Part shown: one piece after another, positions 1 to 27,345 of the stretch
Numbering within the stretch: position 1 is the stretch's first letter
How the letters are laid out: each line of letters opens with the position of its first letter
Source of the DNA: Clostridia bacterium
GTDB taxonomy: Bacteria > Bacillota > Clostridia > Lutisporales > Lutisporaceae
Reading direction: 5' to 3'
Assembly: GCA_017994115.1 (NCBI GenBank)
Contig: JAGOLK010000003.1
Coordinates: forward strand, 1 to 64,000
DNA length: 64,000 nt
Program-made: the position numbers and the translations under genes
Notes under the pieces: generated by a model
Database searches by the model: none
What the model was told of the DNA's origin: nothing
The model's input: only the letters and a program-made list of their open reading frames with translations

Positions 1-38
1 GCCCATTACTGACCCTCCTTAATCCGTCCGCTGATTTA

Positions 39-67
39 TTGCACGTGCGCTTAAGCTATAATATAAT
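39..67 (+). promoter_or_regulatory. Sigma-A-type promoter for the structured RNA
   Basis: TTGCAC at 39-44 and TATAAT at 62-67 are separated by 17 bases, a near-consensus vegetative promoter. Initiation would fall near 74, about 40 bases before the first long helix of the RNA at 114. A second TATAAT at 76-81 could give a closer start. No ORF follows before 489, so the promoter most simply drives the non-coding RNA. Confidence 0.6.
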
Positions 68-113
68 AGGTTTTTTATAATATTATACAATATAAATAGA
101 ATGCTAACATCTG

Positions 114-366
114 AAGTTTGCAGTCATCCTGCAAAGCACTGGCCTTGTATAACAGCGAACACTTATTGGCTTTGGGCAACAGAATCAAGTGAAGATGCGC
201 AGTAAAATCCGTGGGATTTACGTGAGGTAAATCCAGCACATACCAACAGGAGGTTGGGTTTATGTGCGTCAGAATTTTACAAGTATCAAGCTCTGATTCT
301 GTCCAAAGCTAATACCGTGCGAGTCGGTATACAAGGCTATTGCTCCGGGAGTATGACTGCAAACTT
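114..366 (+). ncRNA. Large multi-helix structured RNA, class unassigned
   Basis: The segment folds by eye into a closed multi-branched structure. P1 pairs 114-127 with 353-366 (14 perfect pairs). P2 pairs 141-151 with 328-338. P3 pairs 166-176 with 302-312 and, after a bulge, 180-187 with 294-301. P4 pairs 202-208 with 274-280. Two hairpins sit inside: 214-234 and 236-267. A further hairpin, 313-317 with 325-329, slightly competes with P2. Three G-U wobbles (141/338, 168/310, 176/302) would be A-C mismatches on the other strand, so the plus strand is the RNA. There is no T-run terminator after 366. It is not a T-box, cobalamin, RNase P or tmRNA by their signature motifs. The raiA RNA of Clostridia has roughly comparable size and is one candidate, but I cannot confirm it. 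Confidence 0.75.
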
Positions 367-405
367 ATAGCTATGTCGCATTATTATACCATAATCTAAT
401 GAAGT

Positions 406-434
406 TTGAAAAAAATATTTAATTGGAATATAAT
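406..434 (+). promoter_or_regulatory. Sigma-A-type promoter of the multidomain operon
   Basis: TTGAAA at 406-411 and TATAAT at 429-434 have exactly 17 bases between them; a second overlapping TATAAT lies at 434-439. It lies between the structured RNA and the AAGGAGG site at 477-483, giving a leader of about 50 bases. The operon therefore does not need to be read from the RNA promoter. Confidence 0.65.
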
Positions 435-488
435 ATAATTTAAACTATACTGTAGTTTCCGCAATTTCCAGTGCTTAAGGAGGATTTT

Positions 489-3400
489 ATGAATAAGGAA
501 TATATAATCAGGCTCTACAATGATATATGCAATAGGCTTCTCCAACTGGATTTGCCTTATGATTCGAAGGATACTGTAAAAAAATATATAGAAGACGTCA
601 GCTTTATTGACAATCTTCACAAGATTGTCGGGAACAGGGATTACAGCTGCAATTCAGTTCTGCTGCTGTGTCAAAGCCTTATGAACCAAGTTGCAGAGGA
701 TAATATTCCACAAAACTGGCTTGAATATGTATATCAGTACACCCTGAGCAAATCCTTCCCCCATGCAGTTGAAGCGGAGCTTAAGAATGGATTGGAAGGC
801 TCATGCAGCATATATCTGCAGACTCTCAGAGAGATTTCAGAATTCCAAAAAAACGACACGGATGATACATGGCAGAGCAGATATCCTATACGATTCCTAT
901 CTTCCGAAGAAGAAAACGATTTGGAAAACCCAATTGAATATAAGAAATTCCTTAAGGCCTTCGATGAATTGTATGTATATGAAATGATGAAGCTGAATCA
1001 GGAGGTCTTGGGCTTTAATACCCTTGATCATATTTGCGGGGTGCATTACCTGGCTTTATATATAGGAAGGGAACTGAAAAAAGCCGGAATCCCAATTGAC
1101 CTTGGCAGGGTTTCGGGAGCCGCAGCAGGCCATGATATTGGAAAATACGGATGCAAATCTTCTGAATCCAAGAGGGTGCCGTATCTTCATTATTACTATA
1201 CCGATTTGTGGTTCAGAAATCATGACATTACCTATATAGGCCACATAGCCACAAATCATTCCACCTGGGACCTTGAGCTTGAAAACCTTCCCCTTGAGTC
1301 CTTGGTACTCATATACTCAGACTTCAGAGTAAAACATGATGCAACCGGGAACACAAGAGAAATGCATATCTATCCCCTGCAGGATTCCTTTAAGATTATT
1401 CTGGATAAACTGGATAATCTGGATGCCATAAAGGAGAAGAAGTACAGACGAGTATATTCCAAGCTTACGGACTTTGAGGATTATTTGATAAATCTTGGTA
1501 TAGAAGTTGATATAAATAACATTGTCAAGGGCATAAGAAGGGAATTGGGAATAAAAAACCGTCATTATTCCCTTATGAGCGGGAGCCAGGTGATAAAGAA
1601 TATCAAGTATCTGGCAATCAACCATAACATAAATCTTATGTATCAGCTGAGGGATGAGGCTTCCCTTAACCGCATACTGGAATCAGCCAGAAGTGAAGCC
1701 AACTGGAAAAAGCTTAGGGAGTATATCAGGATTTTTGAGGAATACTCCACTTATCTCACACAGAAACAAAAACTCATTACTATCAGATTCCTTTATGAAC
1801 AACTGGTGCATCCCGAGGATGATATCAGAAGGCAATGTGCAGAGCTGATAGGACTATTGATCGCAAGATTTGACGAAAAATATCGCAAGGATGTGCCCGA
1901 AAATGCCATACTTGACGCTCCCGTAATGACAAGCTTCGAGCTGCTGGACAGATACATGCAGCTTCTGGTCAGTCCTGACCATAAAATAGTACCTCTCCAC
2001 AAAAGTTACCTGGGATACAGCATCAGCATCATAATTTCATCGTTGTTTTCACACTGCAGCAAGAGCCAGATAGAAGGCTTCAGAACTGTTGCTGCCAAGT
2101 ACTATAAGGAAGGTGCCCGCAGGAACTATGAGACAAAGCTGTATCTGCTTGAAGCCATAAGGTATATGCCTGTCTACGGTGACTATGAAGCAGACAGGAT
2201 AATCTGCAGTTATGTCAAAAGGCGGCTTATCGATAAAAGCAACGCCATAAGGCTTTCCGCAATGGAAGTGGCATATAATATCCTTGCCCGTTCCCGGAAC
2301 AATGCCGATACATCCGGGGAGGATACCGCAATCGGCAGCTTGGCGCACACTGTCAAGGAAATGATATCAGGCACTCATAGAAGATCCGGTGTTGTTTCCG
2401 AAAACTATCTGAAACATAAAATCGCATGCTTGCTGGGAATGGAGCCGGCAGTACTGAATAAATTCCATGAGTACTGCCATAAGGACCTTCACAAGCTTTC
2501 AGAAATCTCATTGAGCAATCTTAAAACCGCAACAGAATGGGTAATAAAAAGAATTCAGCTGGACCTGCTTCTTGACAACTCATTAAGGAATCCAAAATCC
2601 GGCGGGTTTTATTCAGCTATGCATTTTTGCAATCTAATGAAGGTCAGTGCCTCCGAGAGTGTCCGAAATCGTGCCGGAGAGGCACTGATACATATAGTTT
2701 CCCACTTGTCCCCGGAGCAGAGGAATGACATTGCTGTGGAAATGCTCCGTGCCCTTGAAATTGAAGGGTACCAGTTTGCAGAATACATTCCGAACTACTT
2801 GGGAAAAATCATCCTATCCCTTGAACCCGTGGAACTTGATGAGGTCCTTGACGATTTCAAGGAGAAGATAAAAAACTCCACCCCCCACTTGGACTCTCTG
2901 ATATTAAAAACCATAGGCATAACAATAGCAAATTACCCATCCTATATCGAAACATTTAAAGAGAAAAGGGAAGTCTATGAAAACAGGCTCATAAGGATGC
3001 TCAGTATCATCATCAACGGACTTGCCCATTACGACGCAGATGTAAAGCAGTCTGCCTTCAGCGTTTTAGGCAAGGAGATCTTCGGTTCAAGTACTCTGAT
3101 GCCGGAAGAAAAGAATGAGATTTTTATCCGTATTGCCAAGAAGCTGCTCACACTGCTTGAGGACGATATCCGGGAAGGGCTGTTGTTTCTTACAAATTCA
3201 GCGGGCTTAATCAATATTTACAGGTTTATTTCCGATTATACTTTCTTTTACAAAGATATCGAAATAGCTGTCCCTGAGAAGGTTGCATTTTTCCCGGGAG
3301 CTTTTGATCCCTTCTCTCTGGGGCATAAGGAGATTGCGAGAGCAATACGTGATATGGGCTTTGAAGTTTACCTGGCCGTGGACGAATTTTCCTGGTCAAA

Positions 3401-5405
3401 GAAAACCCTTCCGAATCTTATCAGGAAAAGTATTATTAATATGTCCGTTGCTGAAGAATTCGACATATACATCTATCCTGAGGATTATCCCACAAATATT
3501 GCGAATCCTTTGGATCTTGAGGTACTGAGGAACAATTTCCCGGCATCTGAGGTTTATATAGTTGCGGGAAGCGATGTAATGATTAATGCCTCGGCATATA
3601 AAAATGAAATAAGCAAAAACTCCGTATTAACATTTTCACATATTATATTTGAAAGGAAGAGTTCCTATAATCAATATGGAAAAGATGCAGGCAAGCTTTC
3701 GGAAACAATCGGCAAAATCGACGGAAAGATAATCCGCCTGTCCCTTCCTCCTCAATATGAGGATATCAGTTCTACCCAGATAAGAAGCAATGTTGATGAA
3801 AACAGAGATATATCAATGCTGGTGGACCCTCTGGCCCAGAAATTCATATATGAAAACGGCTTCTATCAGAGTGAACCCCAGTATAAGTCAATGGTACAGA
3901 CAGAGTCCATCGAAATCGAAGTAGTGGAGAAAGTAAGCAGAGAGCTGTTCAATGAATTATCCTCATCCATGTGTGTCAACAGGGAATCCCTTGCAGACAG
4001 CCTCGGAAAATTTCTCGAGAAGATAGCCTCAAGACTTCTTTTAATCAGAGACGCGGATCATAAAAAGCAGATCCTTGGTTTTTCTGCTTTTCACAGAATC
4101 AGCTCCAGCTTCCTTTACCAGGAATTCGGGAACAGCTCTGTAACTGAATATATAAGAGAAAACTCCACAGGAAAAATAGTGAGCATTGACGGTATATTCA
4201 TATTGAACAACGCCGTTCTTGAAAACATGGAGCAGATTCTTCTGGCGGAAACACTGGCTTACTGTATAGCCCGGGATTATGACTATGCAGTATTCCACAG
4301 CACATTAAGCCCCGTATCCTACGATATGCTTGAAGTCCTTAGGCTGATGGGCTTCAGGGATCTGCCCTGTCCCGGATGCCTGAACGAAGTGCTGGCAGTT
4401 AATATAAGCACCCCTTGCGCCTTGAATCTGGATATAGAGACTACCATCAAGGAACCGTACAGAAGCAGCAGCGCACTCATGGATGTGGTATCAAGGACCA
4501 GGAAAAGAATCCAGGGAACTCTTGCGGAAGTGTATTCCGGAAATCTGATACTACCCTTTGACAGAGCAGTCATGTACAGCACTCTGATCAAGAAAATATG
4601 CGAGGTGAATGAAGTTCCCACAAAGCCTTTGAAGCCAAGGCACCTGGGGCCTGCCATGTGCGTACCCTACGGCAATATGCTCAGCAGAAGTATTATTCCC
4701 AACACAGTAACAAAGGCGCTTCATACAGAAAGGCTATACGGCCCTGATGCCAAGGATTACAAGGTTGGGAATTTCCCATATTATCTTGATCTTGAAATCC
4801 AGATGAAGATGCTGAAATCCTTTAACAGGCCCATTATTCTGGTGGATGACACCCTGCATCACGGCTTCAGGCTGAAAACCCTGGACCCAATGCTGAAAAA
4901 AGAGAATATTGAGGTAAGGAAGATAATTGTCGGCATACTTTCCGGTAAAGGGAAGGAATTAATGGAAATCCAGGGAAATGATACGGATTGTGCATATTTT
5001 ATTCCGCGTCTGAGAGAATGGTATAACGAAAACAATTTCTATCCCTTTATAGGCGGAGATGCTTTATGGAGGGGCATATACCCGAAAAGGAACCTGCTAC
5101 CCTCAATAAACCTGATACTCCCTTATACCTCACCCTCTTTCCTGAACGAGACATCGAAAAAGTCAATATATATGCTTTCGCATACCGCCATGGAAAATGC
5201 GATAGAAATACTGTCAACCCTGGAGGATGAATTCCAGGCCATCAATGAAAGGAGCCTGACACTGTCTTCCATGGGACAGGTATTTATAACACCCAGATGT
5301 CCCGATCACGGACAAAACATGGACTATGACCTTAGCCTGAGCCCATCCTTCTATCTTAAAAACGATTTGGAGCTGTTGGATAGGCTCGAGCGAATCATAT
5401 GCTGA
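489..5405 (+). CDS. Multidomain HD / NadD-like nucleotidyltransferase / PRTase-like protein
   Basis: This is a 1638-residue protein of unknown overall function. An HD-type metal phosphohydrolase domain lies at about 175-290 (H181, H186, HD at 215-216, H257, D278). Helical, HEAT-like repeats follow to about 920. A NadD/cytidylyltransferase-like domain spans about 930-1130, with FPGAFDP...GH at 935-946 and ISSTQIR near 1093. An acetyltransferase-like stretch covers about 1150-1310. A C-terminal type I phosphoribosyltransferase signature (VDDTLHHG) sits near 1452-1459. HD (YqeK) and NadD are neighbouring genes in many Firmicutes, so this may be an NAD- or nucleotide-related enzyme fused onto a scaffold. 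I chose ATG 489 because AAGGAGG (477-483) lies inside the 18-base upstream extension starting at 471. It heads a three-gene operon. Confidence 0.8.
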   Translation: MNKEYIIRLYNDICNRLLQLDLPYDSKDTVKKYIEDVSFIDNLHKIVGNRDYSCNSVLLLCQSLMNQVAEDNIPQNWLEYVYQYTLSKSFPHAVEAELKNGLEGSCSIYLQTLREISEFQKNDTDDTWQSRYPIRFLSSEEENDLENPIEYKKFLKAFDELYVYEMMKLNQEVLGFNTLDHICGVHYLALYIGRELKKAGIPIDLGRVSGAAAGHDIGKYGCKSSESKRVPYLHYYYTDLWFRNHDITYIGHIATNHSTWDLELENLPLESLVLIYSDFRVKHDATGNTREMHIYPLQDSFKIILDKLDNLDAIKEKKYRRVYSKLTDFEDYLINLGIEVDINNIVKGIRRELGIKNRHYSLMSGSQVIKNIKYLAINHNINLMYQLRDEASLNRILESARSEANWKKLREYIRIFEEYSTYLTQKQKLITIRFLYEQLVHPEDDIRRQCAELIGLLIARFDEKYRKDVPENAILDAPVMTSFELLDRYMQLLVSPDHKIVPLHKSYLGYSISIIISSLFSHCSKSQIEGFRTVAAKYYKEGARRNYETKLYLLEAIRYMPVYGDYEADRIICSYVKRRLIDKSNAIRLSAMEVAYNILARSRNNADTSGEDTAIGSLAHTVKEMISGTHRRSGVVSENYLKHKIACLLGMEPAVLNKFHEYCHKDLHKLSEISLSNLKTATEWVIKRIQLDLLLDNSLRNPKSGGFYSAMHFCNLMKVSASESVRNRAGEALIHIVSHLSPEQRNDIAVEMLRALEIEGYQFAEYIPNYLGKIILSLEPVELDEVLDDFKEKIKNSTPHLDSLILKTIGITIANYPSYIETFKEKREVYENRLIRMLSIIINGLAHYDADVKQSAFSVLGKEIFGSSTLMPEEKNEIFIRIAKKLLTLLEDDIREGLLFLTNSAGLINIYRFISDYTFFYKDIEIAVPEKVAFFPGAFDPFSLGHKEIARAIRDMGFEVYLAVDEFSWSKKTLPNLIRKSIINMSVAEEFDIYIYPEDYPTNIANPLDLEVLRNNFPASEVYIVAGSDVMINASAYKNEISKNSVLTFSHIIFERKSSYNQYGKDAGKLSETIGKIDGKIIRLSLPPQYEDISSTQIRSNVDENRDISMLVDPLAQKFIYENGFYQSEPQYKSMVQTESIEIEVVEKVSRELFNELSSSMCVNRESLADSLGKFLEKIASRLLLIRDADHKKQILGFSAFHRISSSFLYQEFGNSSVTEYIRENSTGKIVSIDGIFILNNAVLENMEQILLAETLAYCIARDYDYAVFHSTLSPVSYDMLEVLRLMGFRDLPCPGCLNEVLAVNISTPCALNLDIETTIKEPYRSSSALMDVVSRTRKRIQGTLAEVYSGNLILPFDRAVMYSTLIKKICEVNEVPTKPLKPRHLGPAMCVPYGNMLSRSIIPNTVTKALHTERLYGPDAKDYKVGNFPYYLDLEIQMKMLKSFNRPIILVDDTLHHGFRLKTLDPMLKKENIEVRKIIVGILSGKGKELMEIQGNDTDCAYFIPRLREWYNENNFYPFIGGDALWRGIYPKRNLLPSINLILPYTSPSFLNETSKKSIYMLSHTAMENAIEILSTLEDEFQAINERSLTLSSMGQVFITPRCPDHGQNMDYDLSLSPSFYLKNDLELLDRLERIIC

Positions 5406-5423: not shown

Positions 5424-6671
5424 ATGATGTTTTATTATAAGCTATTCAACAAGACCCTGGTATCCCGGAAAGAATACCGGCAGCTGGAAGAAACCTCAGA
5501 ATCGGAAGCAGCTTCCGGTACCGGGCGTATATTTGTGCTGGACAGCAGCCCTCCCGGAGAATCAAGAAGGAGCTTCTGCGCTTCCCAGCCTGACCTTATT
5601 TATACCTTGAAGGAAGGCCTTGATATGCTTCTTCTTCCCGATTCAGAGGATAATAACCTGCCGGATTGGATAATTAAAGCTGTCCGCGGCAATAATGTAA
5701 CCAGGATCAATACCGAATATCCCAATTGGCAGGATGTGCTGCTTTATGAGCCGCCTGCAAAATGGAGAATAAATGTTGCAGGCCTTGGGGATGTGGGAGG
5801 AACTCTTGTCTCAGGCCTGAGGCTTCTGGGGGTTGGCTCGGTATCACATATAGGAATTTTTGACATAGATCCAAACAAAGTCAGGCGTTGGGAGTATGAG
5901 GCCAATCAGATACTGGACTCCAACTGCGGTAATGCTCATCCTGATGTTGTTTCAATATCGGAAAAACAACTTTTTGACTGTGATATGTTCATATTCTGCA
6001 TAACCGCAGGGGTGCCTCCACTATGTGAAAACCCCGGAGATGTAAGGACGGCACAATATGAAGGAAATTCAAAAATCATCAGGGAATATGCTCAAAGAGC
6101 CCGCAGAAGCTGCTATAAAGGCATATTTGCAGTAGTGTCGGACCCTGTGGATATGTTATGCAAGGCGGCCTTCGACTTCAGCAATACTGATGACTGCGGC
6201 AGGCTTGATTTCAATGGCCTTGCACCTGAGCAAATAAGAGGCTACGGGCTTGGAGTAATGCATGCAAGGGCAGCCTATTTTGCAGGCCTGGACAGGGAAA
6301 CCGCTCACTACATAAGGGAGGGCAGAGCTTTCGGCCCTCACGGCGAAGGCCTGGTAATAGCGGACAGTATAGAAAACTACAATGACCGGTTTTCCCGTTA
6401 TCTTACTGAAAAAACTAAAACAGCAAATCTGGAAGTCCGCAAGCTGGGTTATAAGCCCTATATCGCTCCTGCTCTCTCATCAGGCGCCTTGTCAATACTT
6501 GCAACAATAAGAGGACAGTGGCATTACAGTGCTACCTTCCTGGGAGGAGTATACATGGGAGCAAGAAACAGGCTTAATGCTTCAGGAATAGAGCTTGAGA
6601 GGCTTCCAATTCCGGAGGAGCTTTTTTTAAGATTGAAAAATACATATGAAAGCCTGAGGAAAATGCCATGA
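5424..6671 (+). CDS. Lactate/malate-dehydrogenase-like NAD-binding protein
   Basis: The 415-residue protein has an N-terminal extension of about 115 residues, then a Rossmann motif (AGLGDVGG) followed by an acidic FDID that suggests NAD rather than NADP. The order of LDH/MDH landmarks is kept: TAGVPP...GDVR (substrate-loop arginine region), SDPVD (equivalent of NPVD) and GPHGEG (equivalent of the catalytic-histidine GxHG). The segment aligning with the LDH GTxLDxxR motif reads GLGVMHARA, so the usual catalytic aspartate appears to be lost while the arginine stays. It starts 18 bases after the previous gene behind GGGGG (ATG 5424 or 5427) and overlaps the next gene by ATGA. A changed substrate, or a non-catalytic NAD-binding role, is possible. 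Confidence 0.75.
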   Translation: MMFYYKLFNKTLVSRKEYRQLEETSESEAASGTGRIFVLDSSPPGESRRSFCASQPDLIYTLKEGLDMLLLPDSEDNNLPDWIIKAVRGNNVTRINTEYPNWQDVLLYEPPAKWRINVAGLGDVGGTLVSGLRLLGVGSVSHIGIFDIDPNKVRRWEYEANQILDSNCGNAHPDVVSISEKQLFDCDMFIFCITAGVPPLCENPGDVRTAQYEGNSKIIREYAQRARRSCYKGIFAVVSDPVDMLCKAAFDFSNTDDCGRLDFNGLAPEQIRGYGLGVMHARAAYFAGLDRETAHYIREGRAFGPHGEGLVIADSIENYNDRFSRYLTEKTKTANLEVRKLGYKPYIAPALSSGALSILATIRGQWHYSATFLGGVYMGARNRLNASGIELERLPIPEELFLRLKNTYESLRKMP

Positions 6672-7720
6672 GCGATTATTATGCGATAATTCCCGGAAAT
6701 ATTTCCCTGCAGCTGAAAAGAATGCTGGAAGCCGTATTGATGGGAAAAAATGCTTCATACATAACAGACAAGCACAGCTTGCCTGACCTCAGAGGAGTAA
6801 AGATAATAGTATGCGCTGAAATAAGCCCTGCCGGCTTATGCATACCATTGTATGAAATATTGGAAGAGCTTCAAAGCCGGGGCTGCGATTCCCTGAAGAA
6901 TTCCTCGGCAATACTGCTGCTGCACAGCTCCAATGAGTTATATACAAAGAGCACCGCTTCCTTTATAGTATTCCTGCTGAATCAATTGGGCTGCCGCTTC
7001 CCGGGTCATCCTGCCATAGAAGCCACAGGCAGCCTGTCAAACTTCTCCACCTGGAGAAAAATAAAGGAAGCCTCCCTTGAAGATATCTGCTTGGAGCTAT
7101 GCATTTCGCTGGGAGAAAGATTCGCCGCGTACAATCCCGCAGCTGTTAAAAAACCGAAAATACTTGCGCTTCACTCCAGCCGGAAGGAGACCTCAAATAC
7201 ACTTGCGCTGTGGAATATTGTAAAAAACAGCCTTGAAGGATGCAGAATAAGTGAGCTTCATGTGGAAAACGGAAGTGTAGTTGATTGTAAAGGGTGTTCC
7301 TATAAGACATGCAAGCATTTCAGCATGAACAACAGCTGCTTTTACGGAGGCATAATGATAAAGGAAATACTGCCCGCCATAGAAAAATCAGATGCGGTCA
7401 TATGGCTTTGCCCTAATTACAATGACGCAGTATCCGCAAACCTTTCCGCAGTGATTAACCGTATGTCGGCATTATATGTAAAAACACCTTTTTATAAGAA
7501 GTCATTGTTTTCCATAATCGTATCCGGCAATTCAGGCAGTGATTCGGTAGCCAGGCAGCTGCTGGGGGCACTTTGCATAAACAAAGGCTTCAATCTGCCT
7601 CCATATCATTCGTTCATGGCTACTGCCAACGATCCGGGGACAGTATGCAAAATACCCGGTATAGAAGCCTCCGCAAGGACATATGCGGAAAATATACTAA
7701 AGGAAATCAAAAGGCCCTGA
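6668..7720 (+). CDS. Flavodoxin-fold NADPH-dependent FMN reductase-like protein
   Basis: The 350-residue protein has a C-terminal half (about 165-350) that resembles NAD(P)H-dependent FMN reductases: LALHSSRKETSNTL as the phosphate-binding segment and WLCPNYNDAVSANLSAVINR as the flavin-site segment. A cysteine series CKGCSYKTC...C between them recalls iron-sulfur flavoproteins, which use a compact Cx2Cx2-4C cluster site. The N-terminal 150 residues are not recognised and may be a second degenerate flavodoxin fold. Its start codon overlaps the stop of the dehydrogenase-like gene (ATGA), implying translational coupling; its own stop lies inside the terminator. It is probably a redox partner of the operon. 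Confidence 0.7.
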   Translation: MSDYYAIIPGNISLQLKRMLEAVLMGKNASYITDKHSLPDLRGVKIIVCAEISPAGLCIPLYEILEELQSRGCDSLKNSSAILLLHSSNELYTKSTASFIVFLLNQLGCRFPGHPAIEATGSLSNFSTWRKIKEASLEDICLELCISLGERFAAYNPAAVKKPKILALHSSRKETSNTLALWNIVKNSLEGCRISELHVENGSVVDCKGCSYKTCKHFSMNNSCFYGGIMIKEILPAIEKSDAVIWLCPNYNDAVSANLSAVINRMSALYVKTPFYKKSLFSIIVSGNSGSDSVARQLLGALCINKGFNLPPYHSFMATANDPGTVCKIPGIEASARTYAENILKEIKRP

Positions 7721-7740
7721 ACTAAAATTCAGGGCCTTTT
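7713..7740. terminator. Bidirectional rho-independent terminator
   Basis: Arms GGCCCTGAA (7713-7721) and TTCAGGGCC (7728-7736) enclose a six-base loop. T4 follows on the plus strand and TTTT on the minus strand. It ends the plus-strand operon and also the converging formate dehydrogenase operon, whose last stop is at 7743. Confidence 0.85.
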
Positions 7741-25792: not shown

Positions 25793-26158
25793 TTAGGACT
25801 TCAGAGCCTGCTCTATAGTACTTATCAAGGCTTTATTATCCCACGGCTTAAAAAGGTAAAGCATTGCCAGGTCATTCTCCAAAGCGCTTACTATCAGCTT
25901 TTCTTCCGCATACCCGCTTAAAATCAATCTGATTGTAGAAGGATATTTCTGTTTTACTCTCTGGAGCAGCTCATAACCGTCCATAGCCGGCATCCTCATA
26001 TCCGCAACGATCAGGTCGACTTTCACTTCTTCAAGTATTTTTAACGCTTCTTCTCCGCTGCTGACTGCATATATGGTATAATCAGTGTCAAGAAATAATC
26101 TTTTGATTGCCATCAAAATCTGCTTTTCATCATCTACAAACAACAAAGTCTTACTCAT
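25793..26158 (-). CDS. Single-domain response regulator
   Basis: The 121-residue protein is a receiver alone: LFVDDEKQ pocket, phosphorylatable aspartate in LIVADMRMPAMDG, LSGYAEE switch and FKPWDN lysine. It has no output domain. It overlaps the end of the HD-GYP regulator by eight bases, so the two are coupled. It probably acts as a diffusible phosphate relay between the kinases here. Confidence 0.88.
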   Translation of the reverse strand: MSKTLLFVDDEKQILMAIKRLFLDTDYTIYAVSSGEEALKILEEVKVDLIVADMRMPAMDGYELLQRVKQKYPSTIRLILSGYAEEKLIVSALENDLAMLYLFKPWDNKALISTIEQALKS

Positions 26159-27176
26159 TCCTTAGGCCTCCCAGAAAGACATCAACAATGTGAGGATCGT
26201 ACAATTTGTTTTTTCCCATTCGTAAAATATTGCAGGCTACTTCCCCGCTCAATTTACTTCTGTAAACTCTGTCACAGGTAAGTGCGTCATAGGCATCCGC
26301 TACTGAAATGATTCTGGCCTCAAGCCTTATTTCAGAACCTGTCATGCCATTTGGATACCCTCCGCCATCCACATGCTCATGATGTTGGGAAATAATCTCG
26401 GAAACTTCTTTCAGGCTGCCGATCTCCTTGATTATTTCAGCTCCGATAATAGGATGGCGTTTTATTTCATTGTATTCATCCTCATTCAATCTGTCCGGTT
26501 TATCCAGTATATTGTCTTTTATGCCGACTTTTCCTATATCATGAAAATAAGAGGCATACTCTATGTTCTGTTTTTGCTGCTCATTTAAATCCAAAATATC
26601 GGCTATTTTCAGAGCATATCCGGCTACCCTCTCGGAATGATTGAATAAACTTATGTCTTTTGCCTTTATTACATTCGCCAGAGCATTCATTGACTGTCTG
26701 TTAAACACTGCTAGCTGCGTTTTCATCCTTTCAATCAAATTTGACCAATTATTACTATAACTTACCGCTGCATTCAGCATTTTCTCCTTCTTATCCTGCT
26801 CACAGCGGTATTCTACCGCTCTTTTTATTATTGATCTGATGTCTTCATTATCCCAAGGCTTTGATATATAATAAAAAACATCACCTTCATTGATTAAGGA
26901 AATAGCAACTCCAATATCCGAATAACCCGTCATTAAAATCCTTACTGTGCCCGGTGAGATTGTTTTTGAATATTTCAGCAGCTCCAGGCCTGTAATGTCA
27001 GGCATTCTCTGATCCGAAACCATAACATCAATTTTATTGCCCTGCAGGATTTTAATGGCTTCTTCAGGTGAATCCGTACTAAGTATGCAATAAGATTCAC
27101 AATTCAAAATCCGCGTCAATGCTGCTATAATACTCATTTCATCATCTACAATAAGTATTTTGTACCTGTCGTTCAT
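26151..27176 (-). CDS. HD-GYP response regulator, probable c-di-GMP phosphodiesterase
   Basis: The protein of 341 residues has a receiver at 1-120 (LIVDDE, VMVSDQRMPD, SKPWD) and an HD-GYP domain (about 155-340) with the complete signature: H in FNHSERVAGY, FHDIGKVGI, HP in KRHPIIGAEI, HHEHVDGGGYPNG, and the ISVADAYDALTCDR segment. These residues support hydrolysis of c-di-GMP. ATG 27176 is chosen because an earlier ATG at 27194 lies on the GGGGGGA ribosome site. A c-di-GMP-I riboswitch and terminator precede the gene, so its substrate probably controls its expression. Confidence 0.92.
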   Translation of the reverse strand: MNDRYKILIVDDEMSIIAALTRILNCESYCILSTDSPEEAIKILQGNKIDVMVSDQRMPDITGLELLKYSKTISPGTVRILMTGYSDIGVAISLINEGDVFYYISKPWDNEDIRSIIKRAVEYRCEQDKKEKMLNAAVSYSNNWSNLIERMKTQLAVFNRQSMNALANVIKAKDISLFNHSERVAGYALKIADILDLNEQQKQNIEYASYFHDIGKVGIKDNILDKPDRLNEDEYNEIKRHPIIGAEIIKEIGSLKEVSEIISQHHEHVDGGGYPNGMTGSEIRLEARIISVADAYDALTCDRVYRSKLSGEVACNILRMGKNKLYDPHIVDVFLGGLRNE

Positions 27177-27220
27177 TCCTGTAAATCCCCCCATCTATAA
27201 TCGCTATATATAAATATAAA

Positions 27221-27253: not shown

Positions 27254-27345
27254 CATCCCGGCAGCCTGGCAATCATAGGAATTATATCCGTTAGATCCAT
27301 AGCTTTGCGGCCTTCCCTTTCGGTAAGTGTGCTATTTTCAAGGAC
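27254..27345 (-). ncRNA. Cyclic di-GMP-I (GEMM-I) riboswitch
   Basis: Read on the minus strand, the segment holds the GEMM-I landmarks in order: GCACA, CUUACC-GAAA-GGGAAG (the stem with GNRA tetraloop), CCGCAAAGCUAUGGAUCUAA (the tetraloop-receptor and joining segment), then AUGAUUGCCAGGCUGCCG closing the second helix. GCAAAGC and GCCAGG.UGCCG are the strongly conserved pieces. The terminator at 27221-27246 follows at once and the HD-GYP gene starts 70 bases further on. It lies 20 bases past the stop of the second kinase, so it can act inside an operon. Confidence 0.88.

Follow-up and report, generated by a model that had tools for sequence, protein, structure and literature searches.

We found that a gene encoding a 1638-residue protein and two oxidoreductase genes form a conserved three-gene unit in anaerobic Clostridia, obligate across the genomes sampled. 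The giant protein joins an HD domain, a helical solenoid, a NadD-type nucleotidylyltransferase, a GNAT-like domain and a type I phosphoribosyltransferase (PRTase)-like domain, and it probably carries three active nucleotide-handling sites, as judged from its sequence. The parts belong to known superfamilies, and we found no named counterpart of the assembly or of the three-gene module. Neither the fusion nor the operon was described in the literature searched.

The operon was studied in a window of 64,000 nucleotides, the whole stretch of DNA analysed, which makes up the first 64 kb of a contig of 72.8 kb from an incomplete assembly of 1.97 Mb. The giant gene (489-5405, + strand) is the first of the operon and a single open frame of 1638 codons for amino acids, from the ATG at 489 to the stop at 5405. 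A strong Shine-Dalgarno sequence, AAGGAGGA, was read directly at 477-484 (+ strand), four bases 5' of this ATG, and for this reason we take ATG 489 as the likely start. The GTG at 471 was rejected because it has no Shine-Dalgarno sequence of its own. A sigma-70-like promoter (TTGAAA-17-TATAAT, 406-434, + strand) lies ahead of the operon; it was found by a consensus scan with 11 of 12 matches, a call that by itself is no evidence of function. No riboswitch was matched by Rfam upstream of the operon (window 1-490), and the Rfam matches in five related loci sit elsewhere, not ahead of the operon.

Just 5' of the operon promoter we identified a near-palindromic element of 256 bp (115-370), which folds into a single long hairpin (-112 kcal/mol; z of -9.9 against shuffled sequences). 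Elsewhere, the 2-Mb assembly contains 15 or more additional copies of nearly full length, with 92-96% identity. The element was not found in the related loci searched, including L021 and L036, and has no Rfam match; it resembles either a MITE or a repeated structured RNA. Further along the window, a c-di-GMP-I riboswitch (27257-27343, - strand) lies directly 5' of a response regulator gene (26151-27194, - strand) with an HD_5 (HD-GYP-type) output domain. Since the riboswitch precedes this regulator, c-di-GMP may itself control what is likely a c-di-GMP hydrolase.

The second gene of the operon (5424-6671, + strand) starts 18 bases past the stop codon of the giant gene and encodes a dehydrogenase of the LDH/MDH superfamily with 415 amino acids (Ldh_1_N, E 1e-9; L-LDH in the PDB, E 5e-10). 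This LDH-like protein has an NAD-binding domain and an N-terminal extension of about 110 residues. H306, R208 and R282 are invariant; we take H306 to be the catalytic His and the two others to be the substrate-binding Arg residues, by motif equivalence beyond residue 253. On the same kind of equivalence, the catalytic Asp position is presumably Met and the Asn of NPVD is presumably Asp, so the reaction of this protein may differ from simple 2-hydroxyacid oxidation. The third gene (6668-7720, + strand), whose start overlaps the stop of the LDH-like gene by four bases, encodes an FMN_red-family flavoprotein of 350 amino acids (E 1e-18). Four cysteines, C207, C210, C215 and C224, are invariant (C-x2-C-x4-C-x8-C), and the partner is probably an Fe-S flavoprotein. 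A terminator-like 14-bp hairpin (7709-7740, consensus scan) lies between the operon and the convergent next gene.

To follow the module across the class, we examined related loci by tblastn. The LDH-like gene was found on the same strand less than 1 kb downstream of the giant gene at 66 of the 73 loci with room for it, and the flavoprotein gene lies near the giant gene on the same strand at 62 of 73. The genes flanking the three-gene module otherwise vary. Profiles for the LDH-like protein, for the flavoprotein and for the C-terminal module of the giant protein were compared with 293 genomes of the class. All three matched an identical set of 23 genomes, and none was discordant. These 23 genomes span nine families. 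The sample also includes four further members of the window's own family, none of which has any of the three genes. The chance of identical genome sets would be 1e-34 if the genomes were independent, a value that is nominal given their shared ancestry. The evolutionary distances of the three proteins correlate at 0.76-0.85 over the 54 loci that hold all three. The two partner genes are what matters most for any explanation of the giant protein, and they went unremarked in the original prediction.

Nitrogen-related genes were seen near some copies. Three glutamate synthase genes lie between the giant and the LDH-like genes at L112 9588-13233 (genome G042) and L024 16751-20154; this trio, confined to one lineage, consists of amidotransferase, ferredoxin-Glu_synthase and GXGXG genes and adjoins an ammonium-transporter-like gene. 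A glutamate dehydrogenase gene adjoins the module at L021, L022, L036, L038, L059 and L060. Serine dehydratase genes were recognised, by reading, 5' of the module in seven Tissierella-type loci.

Across Clostridia, 75 further full-length homologues keep the domain order of the giant protein throughout. Together with the open frame, this bears out the original prediction that the 1638-residue fusion is real. Homologues of full or nearly full length comprise 14 aligned ones from sampled genomes and 80 loci in named genomes, whose carriers include Clostridium, Alkaliphilus, Sedimentibacter, Tissierella, Lutispora, Anaerotignum and Anaerovorax. In the sample of 293 genomes, all matches of the C-terminal module are in frames of about 1570-1690 amino acids, except one frame of 882 amino acids, and apart from this exception no stand-alone relatives of the module were found. 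One copy is on a 2.6-Mb Acetoanaerobium record filed as a plasmid, with no genes annotated at the match. A phage origin was rejected because the giant protein has no match in phages, and a defence origin because the three window proteins have no PADLOC match.

The AlphaFold models have a mean pLDDT of 90.2 (residues 1-930) and 90.4 (residues 926-1638). Searches of the giant protein with Pfam and NCBIfam gave no family model above cut-off except the general CTP_transf_like. Mean identity between homologues is 0.57 for the HD domain, 0.57 for the NadD-type domain, 0.53 for the PRTase-like domain, 0.39 for the solenoid and 0.29 for the GNAT-like domain. Because of this per-domain conservation, we take the HD, NadD-type and PRTase-like domains as the functional sites.

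The HD domain covers residues 140-340 (906-1508, + strand). The Pfam HD model PF01966 matches 60 of 68 homologous domains (best E 4e-7), and the window copy alone scores E 0.0033, below the curated cut-off. H181, H215, D216, H234, H257 and D278 are invariant in 80/80 sequences. These residues form the six-ligand dinuclear set H..HD..H..H..D, the YqeK-type ligand motif. According to a review, the presence of this extended set is diagnostic of a dinuclear site; YqeK, an Ap4A hydrolase that splits dinucleoside polyphosphates, is an example (PMC8177086). In a search of the whole genome, the YqeK model (TIGR00488) did not match the giant gene; it found the real YqeK on contig C3 and, weakly, a match on C105. 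A profile comparison of the HD domain with the YqeK of its own genome by hhalign also failed, and the best PDB profile matches, 1xx7 and 4mcw, are both HD proteins but not significant. The domain shares HDxGK with HD-GYP proteins and differs from them in having neither the GYP motif nor the adjacent HH pair; neither the motif nor the extra adjacent His was found in the region, which reads NHSTWDLELENL.

Residues 370-925 (1596-3263, + strand) form a HEAT/ARM-type helical solenoid in the AlphaFold model (pLDDT 90), with structure matches of the PP2A-A/importin/SF3b-like kind. It is followed by the NadD-type domain, residues 926-1130 (3264-3878, + strand), with the motifs PGxFDPF(S/T)xxH946, GSD1029 and SST(x)IR1099. 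The general model CTP_transf_like matches this domain above cut-off (E 8e-7). We found that it has the NadD fold, with M. tuberculosis NadD (4rpi) as the best match (VIA-align Z 19.6, rmsd 2.4 over 187 residues) and phosphopantetheine adenylyltransferase lower, at Z about 14.5. An hhalign comparison with ten canonical NadDs of related genomes gave E 9e-19 and paired GGTFDPIHxGH with PGxFDPFSxxH, GADxxxxxxWY with GSDVxxNASAY, and ISSTxIR with ISSTQIR. The Rossmann nucleotidyltransferase fold on which the original prediction had staked its reading of residues 930-1130 is thus present.

The fold and the GxFDP..H, G(A/S)D and ISSTxIR motifs are common to NadD and the giant protein's domain, and other features differ. 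H946, the second His of HxGH, is present in 80/80 sequences and SST..R in 77-78/80, whereas the first His is Ser or Thr. The Trp of NadD stacks on the nicotinate ring; at the aligned position, 1036, 77/80 sequences have Ala, Ser or Cys. The NPPHK loop of NadD is replaced by a conserved DEFSWSK loop, and the domain scores below the curated equivalog cut-offs (34.9 bits against 150, and 28.8 against 112). An ordinary nadD and yqeK lie side by side in the same genome (C3:22135-23348). This separate pair indicates that the giant protein is an extra, specialised enzyme rather than a housekeeping copy, and a housekeeping NadD or NadD-YqeK was rejected on this ground. The likeness to the yqeK-nadD pair that had been noted at the outset therefore stands for the fold and the metal-ligand set, but it does not extend to YqeK itself, given the unmatched YqeK model and hhalign profile and the separate pair.

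The GNAT-like domain, residues 1134-1335 (3888-4493, + strand), is the least certain assignment in the giant protein. The strand-helix order predicted in the AlphaFold model fits GNAT, weak GNAT Pfam matches occur in 5/67 members only, and 3% of the columns are conserved. The acetyl-CoA pyrophosphate loop (Q/R)xxGx(G/A) was not seen in this domain. The domain is probably structural, and because it is barely conserved, an acetyltransferase step is unlikely.

We assign residues 1336-1530 (4494-5078, + strand) as type I PRTase-like on moderate evidence. Pribosyltran is by far the most frequent Pfam match of this part (43/68 members, best E 1e-3), and the domain is modelled at high confidence by AlphaFold with a secondary structure that fits a PRTase. 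The two best PDB profile matches at the VDD motif are type I PRTase-fold enzymes, at insignificant scores (E 0.39 and 0.5). VDD 1452-1454, G1459, R1461 and PNTxTKxxH 1404-1412 are invariant or nearly so in the 80 sequences, and D1454 is N or T in 8/80. The motif ILVDD(L)LHKGYR keeps the acidic pair and the Gly, and the Thr residues of the phosphate loop are replaced: the 5'-phosphate loop is H-(K/H)-G-x-R, compared with (S/T)-x-G-x-T in the PRPP motif. Of the four-domain set originally proposed, the HD and NadD-like domains are thus confirmed, the PRTase-like domain has moderate evidence, and the acetyltransferase-like domain is the least secure.

Four giant copies have neither redox partner alongside and lie next to a gene of the APH/fructosamine-kinase family instead. 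The APH-family kinase occurs in 6 genomes of the class sample, all within the 23 that hold the module (nominal chance 1e-7), and it sometimes sits away from the module. By reading, the kinase gene lies inside a pyrimidine biosynthesis operon, between pyrD and pyrE and abutting pyrE, at L137 7847-8773 (G042:C18), and a glutamate dehydrogenase gene adjoins it in G537. The kinase-linked copies in G008, G009 and G013 have decayed NadD motifs, one with a deletion, and each of these genomes also holds another, intact giant gene. The decayed copies have NadD identities to operon-type copies of 0.39-0.53, compared with 0.57 for the operon type, with HD and PRTase-like values about unchanged; all three keep the six HD ligands and the conserved PRTase-like residues. 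The fourth kinase-linked copy (L032) has intact NadD motifs. From this natural pattern, the HD and PRTase-like sites seem able to work as a pair in the absence of NadD. A DUF362 gene (L109 2830-3750) adjoins the NadD-decayed copy in G008.

Taken together, we tentatively favour a reading, at less than even confidence, in which the giant protein both synthesises and hydrolyses an NAD-like dinucleotide, a compound modified or used by the two redox partners. The PRTase-like domain would form or open an N-glycosidic ribose-5-phosphate bond, giving an NMN-like mononucleotide, and the NadD-type domain would join this to AMP from ATP to yield the dinucleotide. The dinuclear HD domain would cut the phosphoanhydride of the product or of a faulty version, and the LDH-family protein and the Fe-S flavoprotein would oxidise, reduce or use the base. 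The HEAT solenoid may hold the active sites, and perhaps the partners too, together. A published NadD-YqeK fusion gives a precedent for the cleavage of NadD products by an HD domain in the same polypeptide (PMC9426524). We infer every reaction, the order of the steps and the base from an observed architecture, set of conserved residues, operon and co-occurrence.

Plain nicotinate is probably not the base, since Ala, Ser or Cys takes the place of the base-stacking Trp and the phosphate loop of the PRTase-like domain is altered. Because the genome has ordinary nadD and yqeK genes elsewhere, it is plausible that the giant protein provides a second dinucleotide activity of a specialised kind. PRPP chemistry is uncertain, owing to the altered loop and the N or T at position 1454 in a tenth of the sequences, and the NadD step is not always needed, since three kinase-linked copies have lost its motifs. 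The Ser or Thr in place of the first His of HxGH argues against the dinucleotide model. The proposal that the protein could make, test and destroy a modified nucleotide fits the near-invariant HD, NadD-like and PRTase-like residues as far as making and destroying are concerned, and 'testing' has no support of its own.

NAPRT was found in 11 of the 23 module-positive genomes (E<1e-100), compared with roughly three quarters of the rest, a difference that includes clade effects; the window's family often has no NAPRT even where the module is absent. Its presence in these 11 genomes indicates that the module contributes something other than simple NAD salvage, and we rejected, for the same reason, a simple substitution of the module for nicotinate phosphoribosyltransferase.

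A more specific version, which we regard as doubtful, is that the module, with the APH-family kinase in some species, makes and recycles a dinucleotide cofactor, of an NAD-like or pyridinium type, that is as yet undescribed. The PRTase-like and NadD-like domains would build this cofactor and the HD domain would remove it, and the module's own dedicated LDH-family dehydrogenase and Fe-S flavoprotein would be its users. A precedent for such a cofactor is the nickel-pincer nucleotide (Lar) pathway, in which a nucleotide cofactor derived from nicotinic acid serves a 2-hydroxyacid enzyme (PMC9283937); the Lar enzymes are of other families than those of the module. Homologues of LarB, LarC and LarE were not recognised in the neighbourhood of the module.

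It is unlikely, though worth weighing, that the giant protein is a writer and eraser of a protein modification. GlnD, as is generally known, follows the same logic, with a nucleotidyltransferase and an HD hydrolase in a single polypeptide. The uridylyl group that one domain of GlnD places on PII is cleaved off by its HD domain; the nucleotidyltransferase fold of GlnD differs from the NadD type, and its ACT domains are absent from the giant protein. By analogy, the NadD-type or PRTase-like domain would add a nucleotide or ribosyl group and the HD domain would take it off. The target, with equally low probability, would be a partner protein bound to the solenoid, such as the LDH-like protein or the flavoprotein. 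In favour are two opposing activities that share a chain with a solenoid of the protein-binding type, the obligate one-to-one partner genes, the glutamate dehydrogenase beside some copies and the glutamate synthase genes inside the module in one lineage. However, NadD-type transferases are generally known to act on small molecules, and glutamate-gene neighbours occur in a minority of loci.

We give similarly little credence to a sensor, in which the HD phosphohydrolase is the sole catalyst and is regulated by the NadD and PRTase-like domains through their binding of NAD(H)-type ligands and PRPP. Its HD substrate, an equally improbable detail, could be a nucleotide second messenger or a dinucleoside polyphosphate. 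No copy, not even a NadD-decayed one, departs from the full HD ligand set, and the PRTase-like phosphate loop is non-canonical, as a sensor would allow. In operon-linked copies, however, the conservation of the NadD domain equals that of the HD domain, and mere binding would need neither SSTxIR nor the second His of HxGH.

Slightly less probable still is quality control of the NAD pool, with NadD making NaAD or NAD and the HD domain destroying faulty analogues, as reported for the fused NadD-YqeK of a minimal mycoplasma (PRK07152, NF005519; JCVISYN3A_0380). Both proteins carry a NadD-type transferase and a dinuclear HD domain, the same two catalytic types, on one chain, and the HD domain of the mycoplasma fusion has been shown to cleave the products of its own NadD (PMC9426524). 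The NadD-YqeK fusion model is also the best NCBIfam match of the giant protein (E 6e-9, residues 931-1157), at 35 bits against a cut-off of 315. However, the mycoplasma fusion has the opposite domain order and no HEAT, GNAT-like or PRTase-like parts or redox partners, all present with the giant protein, whose HD domain differs from YqeK by profile. The genome also has a canonical nadD-yqeK pair apart from the giant gene, the NadD-type domain lacks the base-stacking Trp, the YqeK model leaves the HD domain unmatched, and quality control would account neither for the PRTase-like domain nor for the two obligate redox partners.

That these are unrelated housekeeping genes, neighbours by chance whose domains have independent roles, is very improbable: each protein does have its own known superfamily, but this is already contradicted by the exact co-occurrence in 23/293 genomes from nine families, by the joint absence within the window's family, and by genes that overlap or nearly abut while their flanks vary.

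The exact co-occurrence of the three genes provides a ready set for genetic and biochemical tests, including natural copies that lack only the NadD motifs. A protein modification, if true, would represent a new regulatory writer and eraser. The dedicated dinucleotide that we tentatively favour, if true, would be a new branch of NAD-type cofactor metabolism.
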